Below are positions 27,146 to 54,516 of a stretch of 64,000 bases of DNA, one piece after another. The stretch covers positions 62,001 through 126,000 of the forward strand of contig BGOS01000027.1 in NCBI GenBank assembly GCA_003569365.1, written 5' to 3'. The notes below the pieces were generated by a model. That model saw only the letters and a list, made by a program, of their open reading frames with translations, ran no database searches and was not told the DNA's origin. The translations under genes and the position numbers were made by a program. Position 1 is the first letter of the stretch. The number at the start of each line of letters is the position of its first letter. This stretch comes from Anaerolineaceae bacterium (GTDB lineage Bacteria; Chloroflexota; Anaerolineae; Anaerolineales; UBA11657).

Positions 27146-30100
27146 ATGTTTAAGCGCATTATTACGGCTCTTGGCGGCAATCCCACTGCCCGCGATGTAA
27201 AGCGTTATGAGGAGATTGCCGCCCTGATTGATGCGCGCGAAGCGCATTTTCAGAAGCAGAGTGACGCCGGGCTGCAGGCACAGACCGGAGCTTTCCGGCA
27301 GCAGTTAGCGGCTGCCAGTGCGGCGGGTGGCACACTCGCAGAGCAGCAGGCGGCTGAAGCCGTGGTGCTCGACGAAATTCTGGTGGATGCGTTTGCCGTG
27401 GTGCGCGAGGCCACGGTGCGCACGCTAGGGCTGCGCCACTACCCCGCGCAGCTGGTGGGCGGGCAGGTGCTGCATGCCGGCCGCATTGCGGAGATGCGCA
27501 CCGGAGAAGGCAAGACACTGGTTGCCACACTGCCGTTGTACCTCAACGCATTGACCGGGCGCGGCGTGCATCTTGTCACCGTCAACGATTATCTTGCGCG
27601 GCGCGATGCGCGCTGGATGGGCCCGGTGTTTCACTTTCTGGGTTTGCAAGTGGGCATTCTGCAGGATGCGGCGCGCACTGATTACGCGCAGAAGGCGTTC
27701 ATGTACGCGCCCGACCACCCCTCGGCGCAGGAAGACTCCGATCAGATGCTTGTTGTGCCGCGCCGTGATGCTTACAACGCGGACATTATTTACGGCACCA
27801 ACAATGAGTTTGGCTTCGATTACCTGCGCGACAACATCTCCAATTCACTTGCGGAGCGCCGCCAGCGCGCCCACTTCTTTGCCATTGTGGATGAGGTGGA
27901 CAATGTGCTGATTGACAGCGCGCGCACCCCGCTGATTATTTCCGGCCCGGCGCAGGATGACCCGCGCATGTATGAGGAGCTGGCACGGGTGGTGCGCCAG
28001 CTGCGCCCCGAGCACTTTGAAATTGACGAGCGCAACAACAGCATCTCGCTGCAAGATGAGGGGTACGACCGCATTGCGGAGCTGCTGGGCCGCCCGCTGC
28101 GCGACGCGGAGCGGCCGGAGGAAGTGACTCCGGAGCAGGCGCAGCTGCTCTCGCATGCGGAGCAGGCACTGCGCGCCGAGTTTTTGTACAAGCGCAACAA
28201 GGACTATTTGGTGCAGGCCGGCCGGGTGGTGATCGTTGACGACTTCACCGGGCGCGTGATGCCCGGCCGGCGCTGGAGTGACGGGCTGCATCAGGCAGTG
28301 GAAGCCAAGGAAGGCGTAAAGGTGCAGGCCGAGAATGTCACCTACGCCACCATCACGCTGCAAAATTATTTTCGCCTGTACCCCAAGCTGGCCGGCATGT
28401 CCGGCACCGCAGTCACTGAAGCCGAAGAGTTCAACAAAATTTACAAGCTGGATGTGGTGCCAATCCCAACCCATTTGGATTATCGCGCGCGCCATGATCC
28501 GGATCTGATGGAGGTGAACTTTCGCGAGAACGGCGGCAAGTTTTCCTACATTGCGCGCCGCTCGGCGCCGGACAAGCCGCTGCTGCACCGCCGCAAGGAC
28601 TACGACGACCTCGTCTTCCGCACTGAAGAGGCCAAGCTGCGCGCGCTAACGCGCGATGTACTGGCGCGCCACGCTGCCGGGCAGCCGATGTTGATCGGCA
28701 CCACGTCGGTGGAGGCATCCGAGCAGCTCTCGCACCGGCTGCGGGCTGAAGAGTTAAAGAAGGTGGCGCTGGTGTTGCTGCTGCGCGCGCGCTGGTTCAG
28801 CGTCAACAAAAAAGAAGAAGACGGCCGCGCGATAGCAGAGTTGGCGGTATTGCTGCCCGCGCTGGATGAACTCAAGACAGCCGACCTGCGCCCACTGGCG
28901 CGCGAACTGGAATTGCGCCTCAACCCGGTGGATGCAGACAACCTGAAGCAGCTGGCGGACTTGCTGCAACTGGGCGCCGATGACATTGCGCGGCTGGCGA
29001 CCGCGCTTGAGGGCGGCATTGTGCATCAGGTGCTGAACGCCAAGCACCACGATTCTGAATCACAGATCATTGCGCGCGCCGGCGAGCTGGGGGCCGTCAC
29101 CATCGCCACCAACATGGCCGGGCGCGGTGTGGACATCAAGCTGGGCGGTGAAATCCCGGAGCAGACAATTGGCAATGTGAACCGCGTGCTCAAGCGCGCC
29201 GGCGCGCCCGACCCTTCGGGGTTGACCAATCCGGAACGGGCTGATGCACTGCGCGCACTGGACGCCGAACAGCTGGGCATTTATGCCGGCGATGCGCAAT
29301 CGTTTTTGCAGCATCTGGAGGATGAGCACAAGGTGCGCGAGCTGGGCGGGCTGCATGTCATCGGCTCCGAGCGCCACGAGGCGCGGCGCATCGACAATCA
29401 GCTGCGCGGCCGTGCCGGCCGCCAGGGCGACCCCGGCTCGAGTCGTTTTTATCTTTCACTGGGTGATGAACTGATGCGGCGGTTTGGCGGCGCAAACGTG
29501 GCCAGCATTATGGAGCGCCTGCAGATTGATGACGCCATGCCGATCGAGCATGGCATTGTCAACAAAAGCATTGAGCAGGCGCAATCGCGCGTGGAAGGGT
29601 CGAACTTTGATGTGCGCAAGCATTTGCTGGAATATGATGATGTGCTCAACACCCAGCGTTCCAAGTTTTATGATCAGCGCCAGCGCATTTTTACCAAAGA
29701 TGACTTAACAGAAGATGCCGAGGACATGCTCGAGGCGGAAGTGAAGCTGCGCGTACAGGTGGCTGCCGGGGAGCCGCAGGGCTGGTGGCGGCTGCTGGAC
29801 TGGCTGGAAGTTGTGCAACCCGCACTCATCACGCCCGAGGGCGGGATCCTGTTCTCCTTCGCAATTGAGCGCTTGCTGGATACACTGGCGGAGCAGGTAC
29901 CGGCCCTGGGTGAGATCTGGCAGGCGCATGCGGCTGCGGTTGAATCACTGCAAGTGGCGCGCAGCGCGCTGGCGGATCCGGCCGCAGCGCAGCCGGCTGC
30001 GCCCGCGCTGGCAACTTTGCAGCAGCATGCCAGCAATATTATGGAGCACGCGCCCGCATTGCGCGCATGTGTGCTGGCAATGGCGCGCTCGGCTGCCGAG

Positions 30101-31369
30101 CGGACTGAGGCGCGCTACCTCGAATTAGTGTCCGAGCGCGTGGCGCGCTGGGCCGAGCAGTTGCCGGCGCGTGCCAAGTCACGCGGGGAGCTGGCGGAGC
30201 TGGCGTACGATGGCGCGCTGGAAGATGCGCGCGAGAACGGGCGCCCGCTGCAGGTGCGCGTGGTGGCCAAGGCGATGTTTGATAATGCCGGCCTTGGGCA
30301 GCTGCTGCCGCGCGCCGAGCTGCAGCACGTAACGCCGGAAAATCTGCGCGTGGAAGTTTCGCGGCAGGTGGAGCAACTGTCCGGTGCGGAGCAGCTGCAA
30401 ACGGCGCTGCGCGGGCTGCAAGTGCAGTACAAACTGCCGGCCATCACCGCAGTGCCCGCATGGGATGCATTGGATTGGGACGCACTGCAGGATGCACTGG
30501 AAGAATCTGCGCGCGCAGCCCAGGCCGCAATGAACGCGCAGCTGCAGCGCGAACTGGCGCAGCTGCTGGAGTTGCGCATCACACGCGCGGAGCATCTCAC
30601 CCGCGCCGAGCTCGGGCGCATTATTGTGGATGTGTCCTTTAACCGCGAGGCCACAGTCCAGGGTGCGCGGGCGCAGCCCGGCCGGGTTGTGCAGCGCTTT
30701 GCCTACACCGGTTATGTGGCAGCCGAGCTGGAAGATGCAAACGATACAGCCGGCATGCAAGCTGATTTGATGGAGCACTTGATGCGCGCCTTTGATGCGC
30801 GCACGCACGCGCTGGGTGAAGCTGAAATCCAGCGCCTCAGCAGCGCCAAAGTTGCCGACCTGGAGCCGGCCGCTGCCGCCGCATTCAGTGCAGTGCTGCA
30901 AGCCGAGGGTCACGTGCTTGACGCCAGTGCTAGCTTCAGCGAACTCACCGCGGGTGCGCGCAGTGCTGCGCAAATTGTGCTTGGCCGGCGCGTGGCCACC
31001 GAGACCATGCGCCAGCTGATGCTCTCCGTCAGCAGCCAGTTGTGGGTGGATTTTCTTACCTCGATTGAAAGCCTGCGCACCTCCATTGGCTTGGAAGCCT
31101 ACGCCCAGCGTGACCCCCTGATGGCTTACAAAAGCCGGGCATTTGATGAGTTCAAGCAGCTGCTGAATGACATGCGGTCCACTGTTGTGGCGCGGATGTT
31201 TACGTGGCAAGTGCGTCCCGCTGCGCCGGCAACTGCGGCAGCTGCAGCAGCCGCACCCGGTGCCACACCAAAAGGTGCGCCAGCCGCCGCACTTGGCCGT
31301 AACGATCCGTGCCGTTGCGGCAGCGGCAAGAAATACAAAAATTGCTGCATGAAATCCGACGGCGCCTAA
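27146..31369 (+). CDS. secA: Preprotein translocase ATPase SecA, unusually large
   Basis: A 1407-residue SecA; most bacterial SecAs have about 800-950. Walker A MRTGEGKT is near residue 116 and the DEVD box near 247; SGTAVTEAEEF and ATNMAGRGVDIKLGG and RGRAGRQGDPGSS (second nucleotide-binding domain) are intact. An insertion of about 90 residues, Leu/Asp-rich and helical, interrupts NBD2 between LSHRLRAEEL and HQVLNAKHHD (about residues 535-625). A second extra segment of about 60 residues follows LGGEIPEQ. The helical wing/scaffold region is also expanded by roughly 250 residues. The C terminus is a normal zinc-binding SEC-C motif, CRCGSGKKYKNCC. It drives protein export through SecYEG. Confidence 0.95.
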   Translation: MFKRIITALGGNPTARDVKRYEEIAALIDAREAHFQKQSDAGLQAQTGAFRQQLAAASAAGGTLAEQQAAEAVVLDEILVDAFAVVREATVRTLGLRHYPAQLVGGQVLHAGRIAEMRTGEGKTLVATLPLYLNALTGRGVHLVTVNDYLARRDARWMGPVFHFLGLQVGILQDAARTDYAQKAFMYAPDHPSAQEDSDQMLVVPRRDAYNADIIYGTNNEFGFDYLRDNISNSLAERRQRAHFFAIVDEVDNVLIDSARTPLIISGPAQDDPRMYEELARVVRQLRPEHFEIDERNNSISLQDEGYDRIAELLGRPLRDAERPEEVTPEQAQLLSHAEQALRAEFLYKRNKDYLVQAGRVVIVDDFTGRVMPGRRWSDGLHQAVEAKEGVKVQAENVTYATITLQNYFRLYPKLAGMSGTAVTEAEEFNKIYKLDVVPIPTHLDYRARHDPDLMEVNFRENGGKFSYIARRSAPDKPLLHRRKDYDDLVFRTEEAKLRALTRDVLARHAAGQPMLIGTTSVEASEQLSHRLRAEELKKVALVLLLRARWFSVNKKEEDGRAIAELAVLLPALDELKTADLRPLARELELRLNPVDADNLKQLADLLQLGADDIARLATALEGGIVHQVLNAKHHDSESQIIARAGELGAVTIATNMAGRGVDIKLGGEIPEQTIGNVNRVLKRAGAPDPSGLTNPERADALRALDAEQLGIYAGDAQSFLQHLEDEHKVRELGGLHVIGSERHEARRIDNQLRGRAGRQGDPGSSRFYLSLGDELMRRFGGANVASIMERLQIDDAMPIEHGIVNKSIEQAQSRVEGSNFDVRKHLLEYDDVLNTQRSKFYDQRQRIFTKDDLTEDAEDMLEAEVKLRVQVAAGEPQGWWRLLDWLEVVQPALITPEGGILFSFAIERLLDTLAEQVPALGEIWQAHAAAVESLQVARSALADPAAAQPAAPALATLQQHASNIMEHAPALRACVLAMARSAAERTEARYLELVSERVARWAEQLPARAKSRGELAELAYDGALEDARENGRPLQVRVVAKAMFDNAGLGQLLPRAELQHVTPENLRVEVSRQVEQLSGAEQLQTALRGLQVQYKLPAITAVPAWDALDWDALQDALEESARAAQAAMNAQLQRELAQLLELRITRAEHLTRAELGRIIVDVSFNREATVQGARAQPGRVVQRFAYTGYVAAELEDANDTAGMQADLMEHLMRAFDARTHALGEAEIQRLSSAKVADLEPAAAAAFSAVLQAEGHVLDASASFSELTAGARSAAQIVLGRRVATETMRQLMLSVSSQLWVDFLTSIESLRTSIGLEAYAQRDPLMAYKSRAFDEFKQLLNDMRSTVVARMFTWQVRPAAPATAAAAAAAPGATPKGAPAAALGRNDPCRCGSGKKYKNCCMKSDGA

Positions 31370-44887: not shown

Positions 44888-45033
44888 ACGGCCTATGCCG
44901 GCGTTTGCACTATTTGCATGGATTGAACATGAGGTTGGCTAATCAAATGATAGGCGACTTGCAATGAACATTCTTTACTTGGGGGCTTGCTGTGCAGCGG
45001 GGTTTGCCGCAGCGATTGCCGGGAACAAAACTT

Positions 45034-45786
45034 ATGCGCCTCGCCAATAAAACGGCGTTGATAACTGGCGGTACGTCCGGCATCGGGCGCGCCACTGTTG
45101 CGCTGTTTGCCGCCGAGGGTGCGCGCGTGGCGTTTACCGGGCGGCGCGCGCAGCTCGGGGCGCAGGTGGCGCGCGAGACGGGCGCGCACTTTGTGCTGGC
45201 GGATCAGCGCAGCCTTGCGGATTGCGAGCGCAGCGTGGCTGAGGCGCTGGCCGTTTTGGGCAGCCTCGACATTTTGTTTAATAATGCCGGCATCGTGCTG
45301 GGCGGCACTGCGGAAACCACTTCTGAAAGCGACTGGGATGCGGTAATGCAGCTCAACGTGACGGCTGTGTGGCATATGAGCCGGCTGGTGCTGCCGGCCA
45401 TGCGCACAGCCGGTGGCGGCGTGATTGTGAACAACGCCTCGGACTGGGGTCTTGTGGGCGCACCTAACGCGCTGGCCTACAGCGTTTCAAAGGGCGCTGT
45501 GTTGCAGCTGACGCGTTCCATGGCACTGGATCACGCGCGCGAAAATATCCGGGTGAATGCAATTTGCCCGGGCGACACCCAGGTGGAACGCTGGCAGCAA
45601 GCCGGGTACCACCGCGATGGCGGCGACCAGCAGGAGCTGCTGGCGCGCCTTGGCGCTGCACTGCCCATGGGCCGGGTGGGCAGCGTTGCGGAAATTGCGC
45701 GCGCGGTGCTTTTCCTGGCGTGCGCCGACTCCAGCTTTATGACCGGGGCCGCACTTCCGGTGGATGGCGGCAACACGGCGCAATGA
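45034..45786 (+). CDS. Short-chain dehydrogenase/reductase
   Basis: A 250-residue classical SDR from ATG 45034; a GTG at 44992 would extend it without adding conserved sequence. Cofactor motif TGGTSGIG is at residues 10-17, NNAG near 86, the active site AYSVSK near 149-154, and ICPGDTQVE near 180. The C-terminal MTGAALPVDGGNTAQ is typical of 3-oxoacyl-ACP reductase-like or 2-deoxygluconate-dehydrogenase-like members. NAD/NADP preference and substrate are not predictable. It is followed 49 bp later by the GMC oxidoreductase gene. Confidence 0.9.
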   Translation: MRLANKTALITGGTSGIGRATVALFAAEGARVAFTGRRAQLGAQVARETGAHFVLADQRSLADCERSVAEALAVLGSLDILFNNAGIVLGGTAETTSESDWDAVMQLNVTAVWHMSRLVLPAMRTAGGGVIVNNASDWGLVGAPNALAYSVSKGAVLQLTRSMALDHARENIRVNAICPGDTQVERWQQAGYHRDGGDQQELLARLGAALPMGRVGSVAEIARAVLFLACADSSFMTGAALPVDGGNTAQ

Positions 45787-45835
45787 AGCGCTGCGCGATG
45801 CTTCGTAAACGCAAACCGACTCCGCAGCACTGCGC

Positions 45836-47806
45836 ATGAAACTGAATCCAGCGCAGATGAACACGCTGCGTGCGCTGTGCCGGGCTTTCATTCCTTCACT
45901 GGAAGTGCCCGGACCACAAGCAGAATTTTGGCGGCGGTCGGCTGACACGCTGCAACTTGCTGACCGCATGGTGGAAGTTGTGGGCGCACTGGGCGCGGAG
46001 CAGCAGGCCGAGGTGCAACAGGCATTGCAACTGCTGGGCAGCCCGCTTGTCGGGCTCACATGGGGCGGTGCGCTGCGGCCGCTTGCGCAGCTCTCCAGCG
46101 CGCAGGCAGAGCAGCTGCTGCAGTGCTGGGCGCGCAGTGATATCGCGCTTCTGCGCAAAGCCTTCATGGGCCTCAAGAAGCTCGTCACTTTCACCTACTA
46201 CAGCGACGCGGCCGCTGTTCCCAACCCCAACTGGGCAGACATCGGCTACGGCGGCCCGCTGGCGCAGCCGGTTGCAGCGCAGCGTCCGCTGCAAATGCTG
46301 CGCTGCGCCGCAGACACTGCGCTGCATTGTGACACGGTTGTAGTGGGCAGCGGCGCTGGCGGCGCGGTGGTGGCTGCGGAGTTGGCGGAAGCCGGCCACG
46401 ATGTAATCATTGTTGAAAAGGGCGCATACGTGCCTGAGGCTGAATTCACGCAGCGCGAGGCGGAGATGCTGGGGCGCCTGTACGAGCAGCGCGCGGCGCT
46501 TACTTCCAGCAACGGCGGCGTCACTATGTTTGCCGGCAGCTGCCTCGGCGGCGGCACCACAGTTAATTGGGCAGGTGCCTTCCGCACGCCGGACTACATC
46601 CTGCAGCAATGGGCAAGCGCCCATCATGTGCCGCACTTCACCACGCCCGAGTATCAGCGCAGTATCGATGCCGTGGCGGAAGCCGGGCATGTGGGCACGG
46701 ATGAGTCGCCGCATAATTTTCAGAATCAGGCGTTGTGGGATGGGGCGCAGGCCCTTGGTTATGCGGTGCAATTAATTGCGCGCAACACTGACGGCTGCCA
46801 GCAGGCGGGCAGCTGCCAGGCCTGCGGCTATTGCCTGTTTGGCTGCCGCAGCGGCGCCAAGCAGGGCGGCTTGCGCACGCACATCTGGCGCGCCCAGAAC
46901 AGTGGTGCGCGTGTGCTGGTGGATGCAAATGTGCAGCGCGTGCTGCTGCAGCGCGGACAGGCCGCGGGCGTCCTCGTGCAGCAGGGTGCGGCGCGCGTCA
47001 CAATTCATGCGCGGCGGGTGGTGGTGGCCGCGGGTGCATTGCATACGCCGGCGTTGTTGTGGCGCAGCGGCTTGCGCCATGCGCAGCTGGGGCGCAACTT
47101 GTACTTGCATCCCACGCTGGCCGTGGCCGCGGACTACGGGCGCCCGATGCGCGCCTGGGAGGGGCCGATGATGAGCGCAGTCTGCAACCACTTTGCGCAG
47201 CTGGACGGCAACTACGGATTCTTGATTGAGACTCCGCCGGCACACCCCGGGCTTTTTGCGCTGGCGATGCCATGGCATTCCGGCCGGGCCCACAAGCAGG
47301 CAATGCTGGCGAGCGAGCGGCTGGGCGGTTTCATTGTGCTCTTGCGTGACCGCGACCCCGGGCAGGTGGTGGCGGACCGGCATGGGCAGCCGCGCATCCG
47401 GCACCGCCTGAGCAACTATGATGCAGCGCATTTGCTGCGTGGCATGCAAACGGCAGCCCGCATTCACGCCGCGGCGGGTGCGCAGGCCGTCTACTTGCCG
47501 CATGCCGCTGCACCGGAAGCGCTGCACGTGGCATCGCCGCATTTTGCAGCAACATTGGCGCAGGCTGGCACTTGGTCCATGCAGCCCAACCGCTTTCCGC
47601 TTTTTAGCGCGCACCAAATGAGCACCTGCCGCATGGGTGGCAATGCGCACACGCATCCACTCGCGCCATCCGGTGAGCTGCGCGCGGCGCGCGGTGTGTA
47701 CGTGGCGGATGGCAGCGCGCTGCCGGAATGCTCCGGCGTGAATCCGATGCTGTCGATTCAAGCCCTGGCGCACTTTGTTGCGCAGGGCATCAAAGCCGCC
47801 ACCTGA
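45836..47806 (+). CDS. GMC family flavoprotein oxidoreductase (long-chain alcohol oxidase-like)
   Basis: A 656-residue protein. The N-terminal 140 residues are a helical domain like the gluconate 2-dehydrogenase subunit 3 or alcohol-oxidase N-terminal region. The FAD motif VVVGSGAGGAVVAAELAEAG begins near residue 165, and GGGTTVNWAG near 238. A Cys cluster CQACGYCLFGC near residues 324-334 is characteristic of the long-chain fatty alcohol oxidase subgroup. The C-terminal GMC part has HQMSTCRMGG and YVADGSALPECSGVNPM. It oxidises an alcohol, probably long-chain. Adjacent SDR genes may act on the same product. Confidence 0.88.
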   Translation: MKLNPAQMNTLRALCRAFIPSLEVPGPQAEFWRRSADTLQLADRMVEVVGALGAEQQAEVQQALQLLGSPLVGLTWGGALRPLAQLSSAQAEQLLQCWARSDIALLRKAFMGLKKLVTFTYYSDAAAVPNPNWADIGYGGPLAQPVAAQRPLQMLRCAADTALHCDTVVVGSGAGGAVVAAELAEAGHDVIIVEKGAYVPEAEFTQREAEMLGRLYEQRAALTSSNGGVTMFAGSCLGGGTTVNWAGAFRTPDYILQQWASAHHVPHFTTPEYQRSIDAVAEAGHVGTDESPHNFQNQALWDGAQALGYAVQLIARNTDGCQQAGSCQACGYCLFGCRSGAKQGGLRTHIWRAQNSGARVLVDANVQRVLLQRGQAAGVLVQQGAARVTIHARRVVVAAGALHTPALLWRSGLRHAQLGRNLYLHPTLAVAADYGRPMRAWEGPMMSAVCNHFAQLDGNYGFLIETPPAHPGLFALAMPWHSGRAHKQAMLASERLGGFIVLLRDRDPGQVVADRHGQPRIRHRLSNYDAAHLLRGMQTAARIHAAAGAQAVYLPHAAAPEALHVASPHFAATLAQAGTWSMQPNRFPLFSAHQMSTCRMGGNAHTHPLAPSGELRAARGVYVADGSALPECSGVNPMLSIQALAHFVAQGIKAAT

Positions 47807-48156: not shown

Positions 48157-49197
48157 ATGAAATATGAGCCGTTGCCAAGGCTAATTGCGAAATTGGCGGC
48201 AGCTGCCTGCCTGCTGAGTGCTGCTTGCTCCCCAACGGGTGCCGTGGTGCAGACTAGTATTGACCAAATAGACGCCATTTCGGCGCATGCGACGCTGGTG
48301 GCTGGCGGGCCGCTGGCTGTGAATGCGGCGGTGGCCGCGACCGAAACCGCAATGGCTGTGTTGGCGGCGGGGTACGCAGCGGCAGCGACGGCCGGGGCGA
48401 CGCTGGAAACACCCACCAAGGTTAGTGCCAACGCGACGGCAACTATTGCGCCAGCCGTGATTGATTCGACTGCATCACCTGAACCAACTGCCGCGGCTAG
48501 CGCCGTGCCTGCGCTGCCGGTGTGGGGCTACAGCGGTGATTACGGCCCGCAGGCGTGGGCGCAAATGGAACTGGCGTTTGCGCTGTGTGGCTCGGGGGCC
48601 GCGCAATCCCCGATCGATCTTACTGGCGGCACCAGCGCAGACTTGGCAGACCTGCGCGTGAATTACATGCCGGCGCAGCTTGCGTTGGCGAACGATGGCT
48701 ACACTGTGCGCGCCGATTACCCGGCGGGCAGCAGCTTGCAGGTGGACGGCGTGGACTACGCGCTGCTGAATTTTGAGATGCATCATCCCAGCGAGCACAG
48801 CGTGAACGGCGTGCCATTCGCAATGGAATTGCAGCTGATCCACCAATCTGCAGCGGGCAGCATTGCGGTGCTGAGTGTGTTTGCCACGGCCGGTGCGCCC
48901 AATCCGGCATACCAGTTGCTGTGGGACAAACTGCCGGCGCAGGCTGGCGCCGCCGAACCGGTTCCGGCAGCATTCAATGCTGCCAGCCTGCTGCCCGCCG
49001 ACCGGCGCACAGCGCGCTACAACGGCTCGTTCACTGCACCACCGTGCACTGAGGGCGTGCGCTGGCTGCTGTTTGTGCAGCCGGTGGAGCTCTCGGCTGC
49101 GCAGATTGAAGCGTTTGCTGCGATCTTTCCCAACAACAGCCGCCCGCTGCAGCCTGCAGCCGGGCGCGTGCTGCAGCTGGATTCTAAGAGCCGCTAG
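48157..49197 (+). CDS. Alpha-carbonic-anhydrase-fold lipoprotein with degraded zinc site
   Basis: A 346-residue protein. Lipobox LLSAAC ends at Cys24; an Ala/Thr-rich stalk runs to about residue 118; the alpha-CA domain starts WGYSGDYGPQAW at 122. The fold motifs are kept: QSPIDL, HPSEHSVNG, FTAPPCTEGVRWL (Thr293 at the Thr199 position). But the zinc ligands differ: FEMHH places Glu207 where His94 (human CA II numbering) belongs, His209 equals His96, and MELQLIH places Gln226 at His119. NDGYTV has Tyr at the His64 proton-shuttle position. It may be inactive or use a different metal. It is followed 8 bp later by an SDR gene. Confidence 0.88.
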   Translation: MKYEPLPRLIAKLAAAACLLSAACSPTGAVVQTSIDQIDAISAHATLVAGGPLAVNAAVAATETAMAVLAAGYAAAATAGATLETPTKVSANATATIAPAVIDSTASPEPTAAASAVPALPVWGYSGDYGPQAWAQMELAFALCGSGAAQSPIDLTGGTSADLADLRVNYMPAQLALANDGYTVRADYPAGSSLQVDGVDYALLNFEMHHPSEHSVNGVPFAMELQLIHQSAAGSIAVLSVFATAGAPNPAYQLLWDKLPAQAGAAEPVPAAFNAASLLPADRRTARYNGSFTAPPCTEGVRWLLFVQPVELSAAQIEAFAAIFPNNSRPLQPAAGRVLQLDSKSR

Positions 49198-49205
49198 GCA
49201 CTCGC

Positions 49206-50030
49206 ATGCGCGCCGTACTTGTTACCGGGGCAAGCACCGGCATCGGCCGGGCCTGCGCACTGCATTGCGCGCAGCGCGGCTGGCAGGTGTTTGCGGGCGT
49301 GCGCAGCGCAGCGGATGGCGCTGCACTGAGCGCACAGGCTGCGGCCATCACGCCGCTGCTGCTGGATGTGACTGTGGCGGAGCAGGTGGCAGCTGCAGCG
49401 CAAACGCTGGCGGCCAGTGTTGGTGGCGGCTTGCATGGGCTTGTGAACAACGCTGGGATTGCGGTGGCCGGCCCGCTGGAATTTTTGCCGCTGGCACAGT
49501 TTCGGCGGCAGCTGGAAGTTAATGTTGTGGGCCAGCTGGCGGTGACACAGGCCGTGCTGCCGTTGTTGCGCAGCGCACGCGGGCGCATCATCAACATCAG
49601 CTCCGTGAGCGGGCGGGTGGCAGCGCCGTTACTTGGCGCGTATGCTGCCTCCAAGTTTGCACTGGAAGCGCTCTCGGATGCATTGCGCTCAGAGCTGCGC
49701 CCGTGGGGCATGCATGTCTGCAGCGTGCAGCCCGGACCGATAGACACGCCCATTTGGGGCAAGTCCCGCAGTGCAGCTGCGGCGCTACAGGCCGGGCTTC
49801 CGCCGCAAGCAGACAGCTTGTACGGGGCTGCCATGAAGGCCGCCGCGCTGCAGGTGGCCGGGCTGCAGCCCGTGATGCTGCCGCCGGAGCAAGTGGCGCG
49901 CGCCGTATGGCATGCGCTTACTGCGCGCTGGCCGCGGGCGCGCTACCCGATTGGCATGCCGGGATACAGCGCGGAATTTGTGGCGCGCTTTGCGCCGGAC
50001 CGCTTGCGCAACTGGCTGGTGCAGGTGTAG
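49206..50030 (+). CDS. Short-chain dehydrogenase/reductase
   Basis: A 274-residue classical SDR. TGASTGIG is at residues 7-14, NNAGIAVAGP near 82, ISSVSG near 131 and the active site YAASKFALE near 145-153. SVQPGPIDTPIWGK is typical of members acting on retinol, steroids or other lipophilic alcohols, though the substrate is unknown. It lies 8 bp after the carbonic-anhydrase-like gene and is probably co-transcribed. It is not closely similar to the SDR at 45034. Confidence 0.9.
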   Translation: MRAVLVTGASTGIGRACALHCAQRGWQVFAGVRSAADGAALSAQAAAITPLLLDVTVAEQVAAAAQTLAASVGGGLHGLVNNAGIAVAGPLEFLPLAQFRRQLEVNVVGQLAVTQAVLPLLRSARGRIINISSVSGRVAAPLLGAYAASKFALEALSDALRSELRPWGMHVCSVQPGPIDTPIWGKSRSAAAALQAGLPPQADSLYGAAMKAAALQVAGLQPVMLPPEQVARAVWHALTARWPRARYPIGMPGYSAEFVARFAPDRLRNWLVQV

Positions 50031-52974: not shown

Positions 52975-54516
52975 ATGAGCGCGCCACCGGACGCCGTGCG
53001 CAGCGCACGCGGCCATACGCTGGAGCAGACTGCCAGCCTGCCGGGCGTGGACTTTAGCGGTGAAGACCTGCATGGCGCCACGCTGAGCAGCGCGGACTTG
53101 CGCGGCGCAGACCTGTCGCACAGCAATCTAACTGGTGCTGACCTGTCTAATGCCATGCTGAATGATGCCAACCTGTCCCATGCCAATCTGACGGATGCAA
53201 AGCTGGGCGGTGCCAGCCTGTACGGTGCCGATCTAACCGCTGCCTGCCTGCTGCGCGCCGCGCTGCAGAACTGCAATCTGGACCAAGTGCGGGCTGCCGG
53301 CGCCAGCTTTGAACACGCGCAGCTCACATCTGCGCTGCTGCGCAATGCCAGTTTTCAGCGCGCCAACTTGATGCATGCAATTTTAGTGGATGCAGACCTG
53401 ACTGAAACCGACTTCACAGATGCGAATCTAAGCCACGCCAATCTGCTGAATGCGCTTGTGCTGGGCATTGTGATGTCCGGCGCGGATCTGCGCTGGGTGC
53501 GCATGAACATTAGTGACTGGAGCACCACGCGCCAGCTTGCAGAGAAGCACCGCTTGGTATGCAAGGTTCATCAGACCGACATTAGCGGCGAGGACGGCGT
53601 TGACATTAATTTGCAAAATGTGGACCTGTCAGAGTGCAATTTTGATGGCGCAAATCTTGTAAACGTTTTGCTGGGTGGAAGTAATCTGACAGATAGCACC
53701 TTGCGCAGCGCGCACTTGGACAAAGCCCAATTTAATTTGTGCAATCTGACCCGGGCAGACTTTAGCGCTGCCGCCCTAACGCAAGCGAATTTTCGCAATG
53801 CGATTCTGGTGGGGGCAAACTTTCACGCAGCGGACCTGACACAGGCATTGTTCGTGGATGCTGACTTAATGGATGCCGACCTGAGCAAGGCCCGCTTGGT
53901 GTCCGCCAACCTAAGCGGCGCAAAGCTGCGCAATGCAAATTTTTCGGGGTCCATCTTGCGCGGAGCTTCGCTGGTGGATGCGGACCTGACGGGTGCCAGT
54001 TTGGAAGGTGCCAGCCTGCTCAACACGGACTTCCGCCGTGCCAATCTGTTGAATATTAATTTGCGCTACGCAATTATTAACGATGGTACGCAATTGAGTG
54101 ACAAACTGCGCGTAGTGCGAAATCTGACCAGCTTGTCTTCAATCAAAGAGAGTATGCGCGGGGTTGACCTAAGCGATGTGAACTTAAGCCACGCCAACTT
54201 GTCCAAGGTTGATCTGACCGATGCAAATCTGCGCCGCAGCAATCTTACTGGCGCGGATTTTCGCGGAGCAACACTGACAAATGCTGACCTGCGGGATGTG
54301 AGGCTGCGCTATGCCCGCTTTGAAGGCGCCTATTTAGTTGGAGCGGACTTGCGGGGCGCCGACTTGCTGATGGCGCGTATATCCACGAGTCAGCTGCTGA
54401 GTGCGCGCTCATTGGTTGGGGCCCGCCTGCCGGGTGGCGTGACGCCCGAAGAATTGCGGCGCAGCGTTAAGGTACTTGGCCTGCCCACCGCGCTGCCGCC
54501 ACTGCGGCGCACCTGA
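52975..54516 (+). CDS. Pentapeptide-repeat protein
   Basis: A 513-residue protein made almost wholly of A(D/N)Lxx-type pentapeptides (for example ADLRGADLSHSNLTGADLS), which fold as a right-handed quadrilateral beta helix. Two interruptions, near residues 180-205 and 360-395, break the helix into three sections. No signal peptide or membrane segment. Some family members mimic DNA and protect gyrase, but most have no known role; nothing here points to a specific one. It lies 15 bp after thrC and 17 bp before the small gene at 54534. Confidence 0.9.
   Translation: MSAPPDAVRSARGHTLEQTASLPGVDFSGEDLHGATLSSADLRGADLSHSNLTGADLSNAMLNDANLSHANLTDAKLGGASLYGADLTAACLLRAALQNCNLDQVRAAGASFEHAQLTSALLRNASFQRANLMHAILVDADLTETDFTDANLSHANLLNALVLGIVMSGADLRWVRMNISDWSTTRQLAEKHRLVCKVHQTDISGEDGVDINLQNVDLSECNFDGANLVNVLLGGSNLTDSTLRSAHLDKAQFNLCNLTRADFSAAALTQANFRNAILVGANFHAADLTQALFVDADLMDADLSKARLVSANLSGAKLRNANFSGSILRGASLVDADLTGASLEGASLLNTDFRRANLLNINLRYAIINDGTQLSDKLRVVRNLTSLSSIKESMRGVDLSDVNLSHANLSKVDLTDANLRRSNLTGADFRGATLTNADLRDVRLRYARFEGAYLVGADLRGADLLMARISTSQLLSARSLVGARLPGGVTPEELRRSVKVLGLPTALPPLRRT

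Follow-up and report, generated by a model that had tools for sequence, protein, structure and literature searches.

We found that P0001, a predicted lipoprotein encoded in the window (the whole 64,000-nucleotide stretch of DNA analysed here), has an alpha-carbonic anhydrase (alpha-CA) domain in which Glu, His and Gln stand at the positions of the three zinc-binding histidines. Reasoning from its sequence, we read P0001 with moderate confidence as a bacterial carbonic anhydrase-related protein (CARP), that is, an exported binding or partner domain that would be zinc-free and catalytically silent. A preliminary description of this DNA had reported an alpha-CA lipoprotein that lost two of its three zinc histidines and the proton shuttle; codons, alignments and orthologs agree with that report, the lipoprotein itself being predicted. 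The interval it gave, 48769–49060, holds the zinc-site residues, but the full gene is larger. The features, all on the + strand, are:

48157–49197, +: whole gene of P0001, a predicted lipoprotein of 346 amino acids; orthologs align from residue 1
48157–48228, +: putative signal peptide with a lipobox-like end, LLSAAC, judged from sequence; Cys24 at 48226–48228
48229–48519, +: Ala/Thr/Pro-rich low-complexity linker, to about residue 120, fast evolving
48520–49179, +: alpha-CA domain, PF00194, by Pfam, phmmer and AlphaFold/Foldseek
48586–48588 and 49045–49047, +: Cys144 (position 23) and Cys297 (position 203), a putative disulphide pair
48700–48702, +: Tyr182 (TAC) at the proton-shuttle position His64, by alignment and codon reading
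48769–48783, +: N205-F-E207-M-H209, positions 92–96, with Gln92 changed to Asn, His94 to Glu (Glu207, GAG, 48775–48777) and His96 kept (His209, CAT, 48781–48783)
48826–48834, +: E224-L-Q226, positions 117–119, with Glu117 kept and His119 changed to Gln (Gln226, CAG, 48832–48834)
49030–49035, +: Phe292-Thr293, positions 198–199, with Leu198 changed to Phe and the gatekeeper Thr199 kept
49206–50030, +: short-chain dehydrogenase (SDR) gene, 8 bases past the CA stop

A ribosome-binding-like site, GAGAGG, lies directly 5′ of the ATG, and the lipobox cysteine is kept in both orthologs (LLGAAC and LAVAAC); judged by this lipobox, P0001 is probably exported and lipid-anchored. Both sequence and fold place the protein among the alpha-CAs. 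PF00194 matches residues 130–338 with 107.7 bits (cut-off 27), and Foldseek, queried with an AlphaFold model of moderate quality (pLDDT 70, pTM 0.74, five sequences), returned top matches that were all alpha-CAs, led by 6im0 (E 1.2e-18); no NCBIfam family model matched P0001. The Cys23/Cys203 pair is the conserved pair of exported bacterial alpha-CAs, and the best solved relatives of P0001 are thermophilic bacterial alpha-CAs.

By aligning P0001 with 85 bacterial CAs and with human CA II, whose numbering is used here, we found Glu94, His96, Gln119 and Tyr64 at the site. Only the His96 ligand position is kept, as the preliminary description had it, and the motifs it named (QSPIDL, HPSEH and FTAPP) are correct. 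In phmmer comparisons with 6im0, 6eki and 8w7x, FEMHHPSEH falls on FHFHAPSEH and ELQLIH on EAHFVH, and both motifs align ungapped with the bacterial alpha-CA structures; zero chance occurrences of the site pattern are expected in the window. The changes extend beyond the ligands to Gln92 and Leu198, which 54 and 52 of the 54 canonical relatives have, respectively; in addition, Asn62 is replaced by Asp and Arg stands at position 67. His64 is present in 46 of the 54 canonical relatives, and a shuttle is not strictly required. Because Gln92, His64 and Leu198 are lost together with the ligands, normal CA activity of P0001 is unlikely. The CA domain contains four histidines (209, 210, 214 and 229), and since there are only these four, each at an ordinary CA position, the lost ligands have no substitute; the filling of the site by other histidines, a caveat raised in the preliminary description, was looked for and no case was seen.

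These residues determine how P0001 compares with the recognized classes. An alpha-CA enzyme carries zinc histidines at 94, 96 and 119 and a His64 proton shuttle, in place of which P0001 has Glu/His/Gln and Tyr182, while the gatekeeper pair Glu106 and Thr199 is present. The eta class is marked by His94/His96/Gln119, and P0001 has Glu at 94. A CARP is an alpha-CA fold that has lost at least one zinc histidine and is kept by selection instead of decaying, and P0001 is of this kind on both counts. Retained residues are E106, H107, E117, T199, V143, V207 and W209. That the catalysis-serving residues among them (E106, E117, T199, V143, V207 and W209) are kept counts against a zinc-free reading, as does the ability of Glu to ligate zinc.

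We scanned 84,980 species genomes for a DNA pattern encoding Phe93-Glu94-x-His96-x-Pro-Ser-Glu-His followed by Glu117-x-His/Gln119. The scan yielded five matches: the two orthologs, a Methylococcales MAG (L039), an alphaproteobacterial MAG (L041) and one from Chitinophagaceae (L037), which was rejected as a CA, being a chance DNA match. Every real match has Gln119, though the pattern permitted His119, and the scan undercounts because it demands Phe93 and a fixed gap. The search proposed in the preliminary description implied a restriction to Chloroflexota, and this restriction does not hold, as members of Methylococcales and of an alphaproteobacterial clade also have this triad. The Methylococcales protein (L039/L043) has Glu94/His96/Gln119, and is the sole alpha-CA of its genome. 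In the alpha-CAs of about 150 relatives that were read, no other copy combines Glu94 with Gln119, and the protein closest to L039 (52%) is canonical.

The alphaproteobacterial clade (L041 and L079–L105, from genomes of 1.0–1.7 Mb) is the more informative about position 94. Gln119 is found in 26 of 26 members in the tree, whereas residue 94 may be any of E, V, S, I, A, L, Y, Q, K or T. Arg replaces His three times at position 96, and position 121 is mostly Tyr. These proteins carry the HHPSEH motif, often with Glu94 and Tyr64, are predicted to be exported, and keep most of the catalysis-serving residues that P0001 keeps, at 26% identity between P0001 and L041. In most of its genomes the clade's protein is the only alpha-CA. 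Several of the loci adjoin trmFO-like and uvrD-like genes, named by inspection. An intracellular-symbiont explanation for the clade is unsupported: an ATP/ADP translocase is absent from all 12 tested alphaproteobacterial genomes with the CA-related protein, and present in three more distant alphaproteobacterial genomes. Among viral contigs, a protein query gave no relative, the Glu94 pattern gave no match and an alignment query gave one end fragment; among plasmids, 194 records carry CA relatives, all less than 60% identical.

With the four site columns left out of the alignment, the tree places the genus of the window among Chloroflexota CAs and L039 among Methylococcales CAs, and it groups the alphaproteobacterial proteins in one clade. 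That all Gln119 forms lacking His94 go back to one origin is rejected (AU p = 0.00013), and at least two origins are supported by these sequence trees, with three in the best tree. The data do not reject a common origin of the window's genus and the alphaproteobacterial proteins (AU p = 0.114), and we therefore do not claim three independent origins. A sign test for coupling between positions 94 and 119 was not significant, with few independent pairs.

We propose that a duplicated, exported alpha-CA domain would have lost its catalytic zinc, and CO2 hydration with it, so that the Glu94/His96/Gln119 cluster may now form a metal-free, hydrogen-bonded core. In CA, His119 forms a hydrogen bond with Glu117. 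Gln119 would stand in for His119 next to the invariant Glu117 and could pair with it, as that bond suggests, leaving position 94 freed from ligand duty to drift or to make local polar contacts once zinc is gone. Position 94 can be V, A, S, I, T, K or yet another residue in bacterial relatives that have Gln119, and members of the L041 clade with Val, Ala or Ile there still hold Gln119 and mostly His96. Because an aliphatic residue at 94 allows no ordinary zinc site, Gln119 with a free position 94 would mark a zinc-free CA fold; and because x-His-Gln recurs with position 94 free, the Glu94 of P0001 need not be a ligand. By analogy, this suggests that x-His-Gln is the state in which the CA fold settles after zinc is given up. 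The fold itself may be retained for binding: the former active-site cavity could take up a small anion or other ligand, or the domain could pair with another protein, for which the cell's two active alpha-CAs are candidates; a role as a binding protein is plausible from the sequence.

A possible but less probable alternative is that Glu/His/Gln is a working, altered site that would hold zinc more weakly, bind another divalent ion or shift the pKa of the bound water, with slow CO2 hydration, esterase-like activity or metal storage as its predicted outcomes. Plasmodium PfCA works with His-His-Gln, and human CA II with His94 changed to Asn is reduced but active (PMC5437132); by analogy with the Plasmodium enzyme, Gln119 alone is compatible with activity, which speaks against a silent P0001. 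All Glu94 proteins of the scan have Gln119, as if the two were a matched pair, and the Methylococcales copy keeps His64, Gln92, Glu117 and Thr199. However, P0001 also lacks Gln92, His64 and Leu198, and the Methylococcales copy has Arg121 in its CO2 pocket. The L041 clade moreover swaps Glu94 for V, A, I or S while Gln119 stays, and because of this interchange Gln119 needs no metal there.

We hold as doubtful a more ambitious proposal, that bacterial alpha-CAs have repeatedly been converted to x94-His96-Gln119, with Glu94 and Gln119 occurring together in at least two independent lineages, and that the proteins with Glu94 have a new, purpose-built site, displayed on the cell surface of freshwater Chloroflexota. 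Such a site might bind a metal other than the zinc of CA, or act as an anion sensor or carrier.

The genome that encodes P0001 also encodes two canonical alpha-CAs, L001 (G000:C3:177383-178015) and L002 (G000:C4:137848-138453), both with His94/96/119 and His64; consequently, CO2 hydration is covered in this cell. By their domains, named by eye, the canonical paralogs are fusions, a FAS1-FAS1-CA lipoprotein of 673 aa and a LysM-LysM-CA protein of 442 aa, and each type of fusion recurs in one sister species. Across overlapping sets of 400 genomes of the phylum and 396 of the class, all other Chloroflexota alpha-CAs with readable ligand positions keep three histidines, except L009 (G301:C208:23929-24582), which has His94, His96 and Gln119, the ligand set of the Plasmodium eta class.

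All three sequenced species of the genus carry P0001, the other two copies being 81% and 71% identical to that in the window, and the Glu/His/Gln/Tyr set is identical in both other species, known from independent assemblies. The ortholog copies are in the MAGs ZE-17mar17-73 and ZSMay80m-chloro-G1, the latter, by its name, apparently sampled at 80 m in Lake Zurich; none was seen in the family's seven remaining genomes, some of which are incomplete. Among the orthologs the CA domain has a dN/dS of 0.13–0.22, against 0.05–0.10 for the canonical paralogs of the same genus, and the N-terminal part has 0.36–0.44 (NG86), with linker identity of 58–73%. The domain is thus under purifying selection, looser than that on the canonical paralogs, and this difference indicates a different or weaker constraint. 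The order CA, SDR, PD40 gene is common to all three loci; in the ortholog locus L040 a PALP enzyme gene comes next, and the other, L038, ends earlier. Genes for an SDR and a GMC oxidoreductase precede P0001 (window 44992–47806, +). Both are present in L038; in L040 neither had a match ahead of the CA gene. Elsewhere in the window are a 513 aa protein made nearly entirely of pentapeptide repeats (52975–54516, +; PF00805, 12 stretches) and a 1407 aa SecA-like protein whose Pfam SecA domain matches are separated by long stretches (27146–31369, +).

Ortholog conservation together with purifying selection indicates that P0001 is a genuine gene and not an error or pseudogene. A redundant third alpha-CA, drifting without function after its activity was lost, might evolve as P0001 does, faster than its neighbour genes and the canonical paralogs, and might be missing from the seven other genomes; yet the frame is open and the same four changed residues persist in three species at 71–81% identity, dN/dS is far below 1 and gene order is conserved, so that we judge such decay improbable. 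That the histidines are present or shifted, and their loss an artefact of sequencing, assembly or alignment, is scarcely credible, for although both ortholog records are metagenome assemblies and the genome of the window is in 30 contigs, the ungapped motifs, the four ordinarily placed histidines and, decisively, the identical residues in two independent assemblies stand against it.

Carbonic anhydrase-related proteins have been described in animals, viruses and Toxoplasma. We found no report of bacterial CARPs in the open-licence literature; relative to the open literature, the bacterial host and the recurrent Glu-His-Gln or x-His-Gln pattern are new, and the fold is ordinary. If two or more bacterial lineages have CARPs with the x-His-Gln seen in animals, the frequent His96/Gln119 endpoint becomes accessible to comparison across lineages, and small bacterial CARPs would be material for structural and binding work. 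PF00194 matches in environmental genomes should not be counted as carbonic anhydrase activity.

Compared with canonical bacterial alpha-CAs (Persephonella marina 6im0, Neisseria 1kop and Thermovibrio 4c3t), P0001 shares the fold (Foldseek E values of 1e-18 to 1e-17, 36–37% identity), the Cys pair, the Glu106/Thr199 gatekeepers and Glu117, but differs in His94 to Glu, His119 to Gln, His64 to Tyr, Gln92 to Asn and Leu198 to Phe. With the L041 clade it shares Gln119 and HHPSEH, the sequences being only distantly related. It has Gln119 in common with PfCA, where His94 is kept. The Toxoplasma protein TgCA_RP, with F-H-Q, was measured to be inactive (PMC5437132); like P0001 it is a CA-related protein with x94-His96-Gln119, and P0001 is, as a prediction, membrane-anchored as well, whereas TgCA_RP has Phe at 94, is eukaryotic and GPI-anchored and belongs to an eta-like lineage. 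Unlike the animal CARPs (CA VIII, X and XI), P0001 is a bacterial lipoprotein with Glu94 in place of Arg, arose independently, out of bacterial CAs, and is presumed inactive from its residues. Human CARPs are reported to recover zinc and activity when histidines are put back (cited in PMC4981384). The likeness to animal CARPs drawn in the preliminary description nevertheless holds, and is stronger than was stated: these proteins reached a conserved R-H-Q triplet repeatedly, and P0001 shares with them the loss of zinc histidines, the retained His96, Gln119 and a fold conserved under selection (PMC4981384), a pattern that also extends to the F-H-Q of TgCA_RP.
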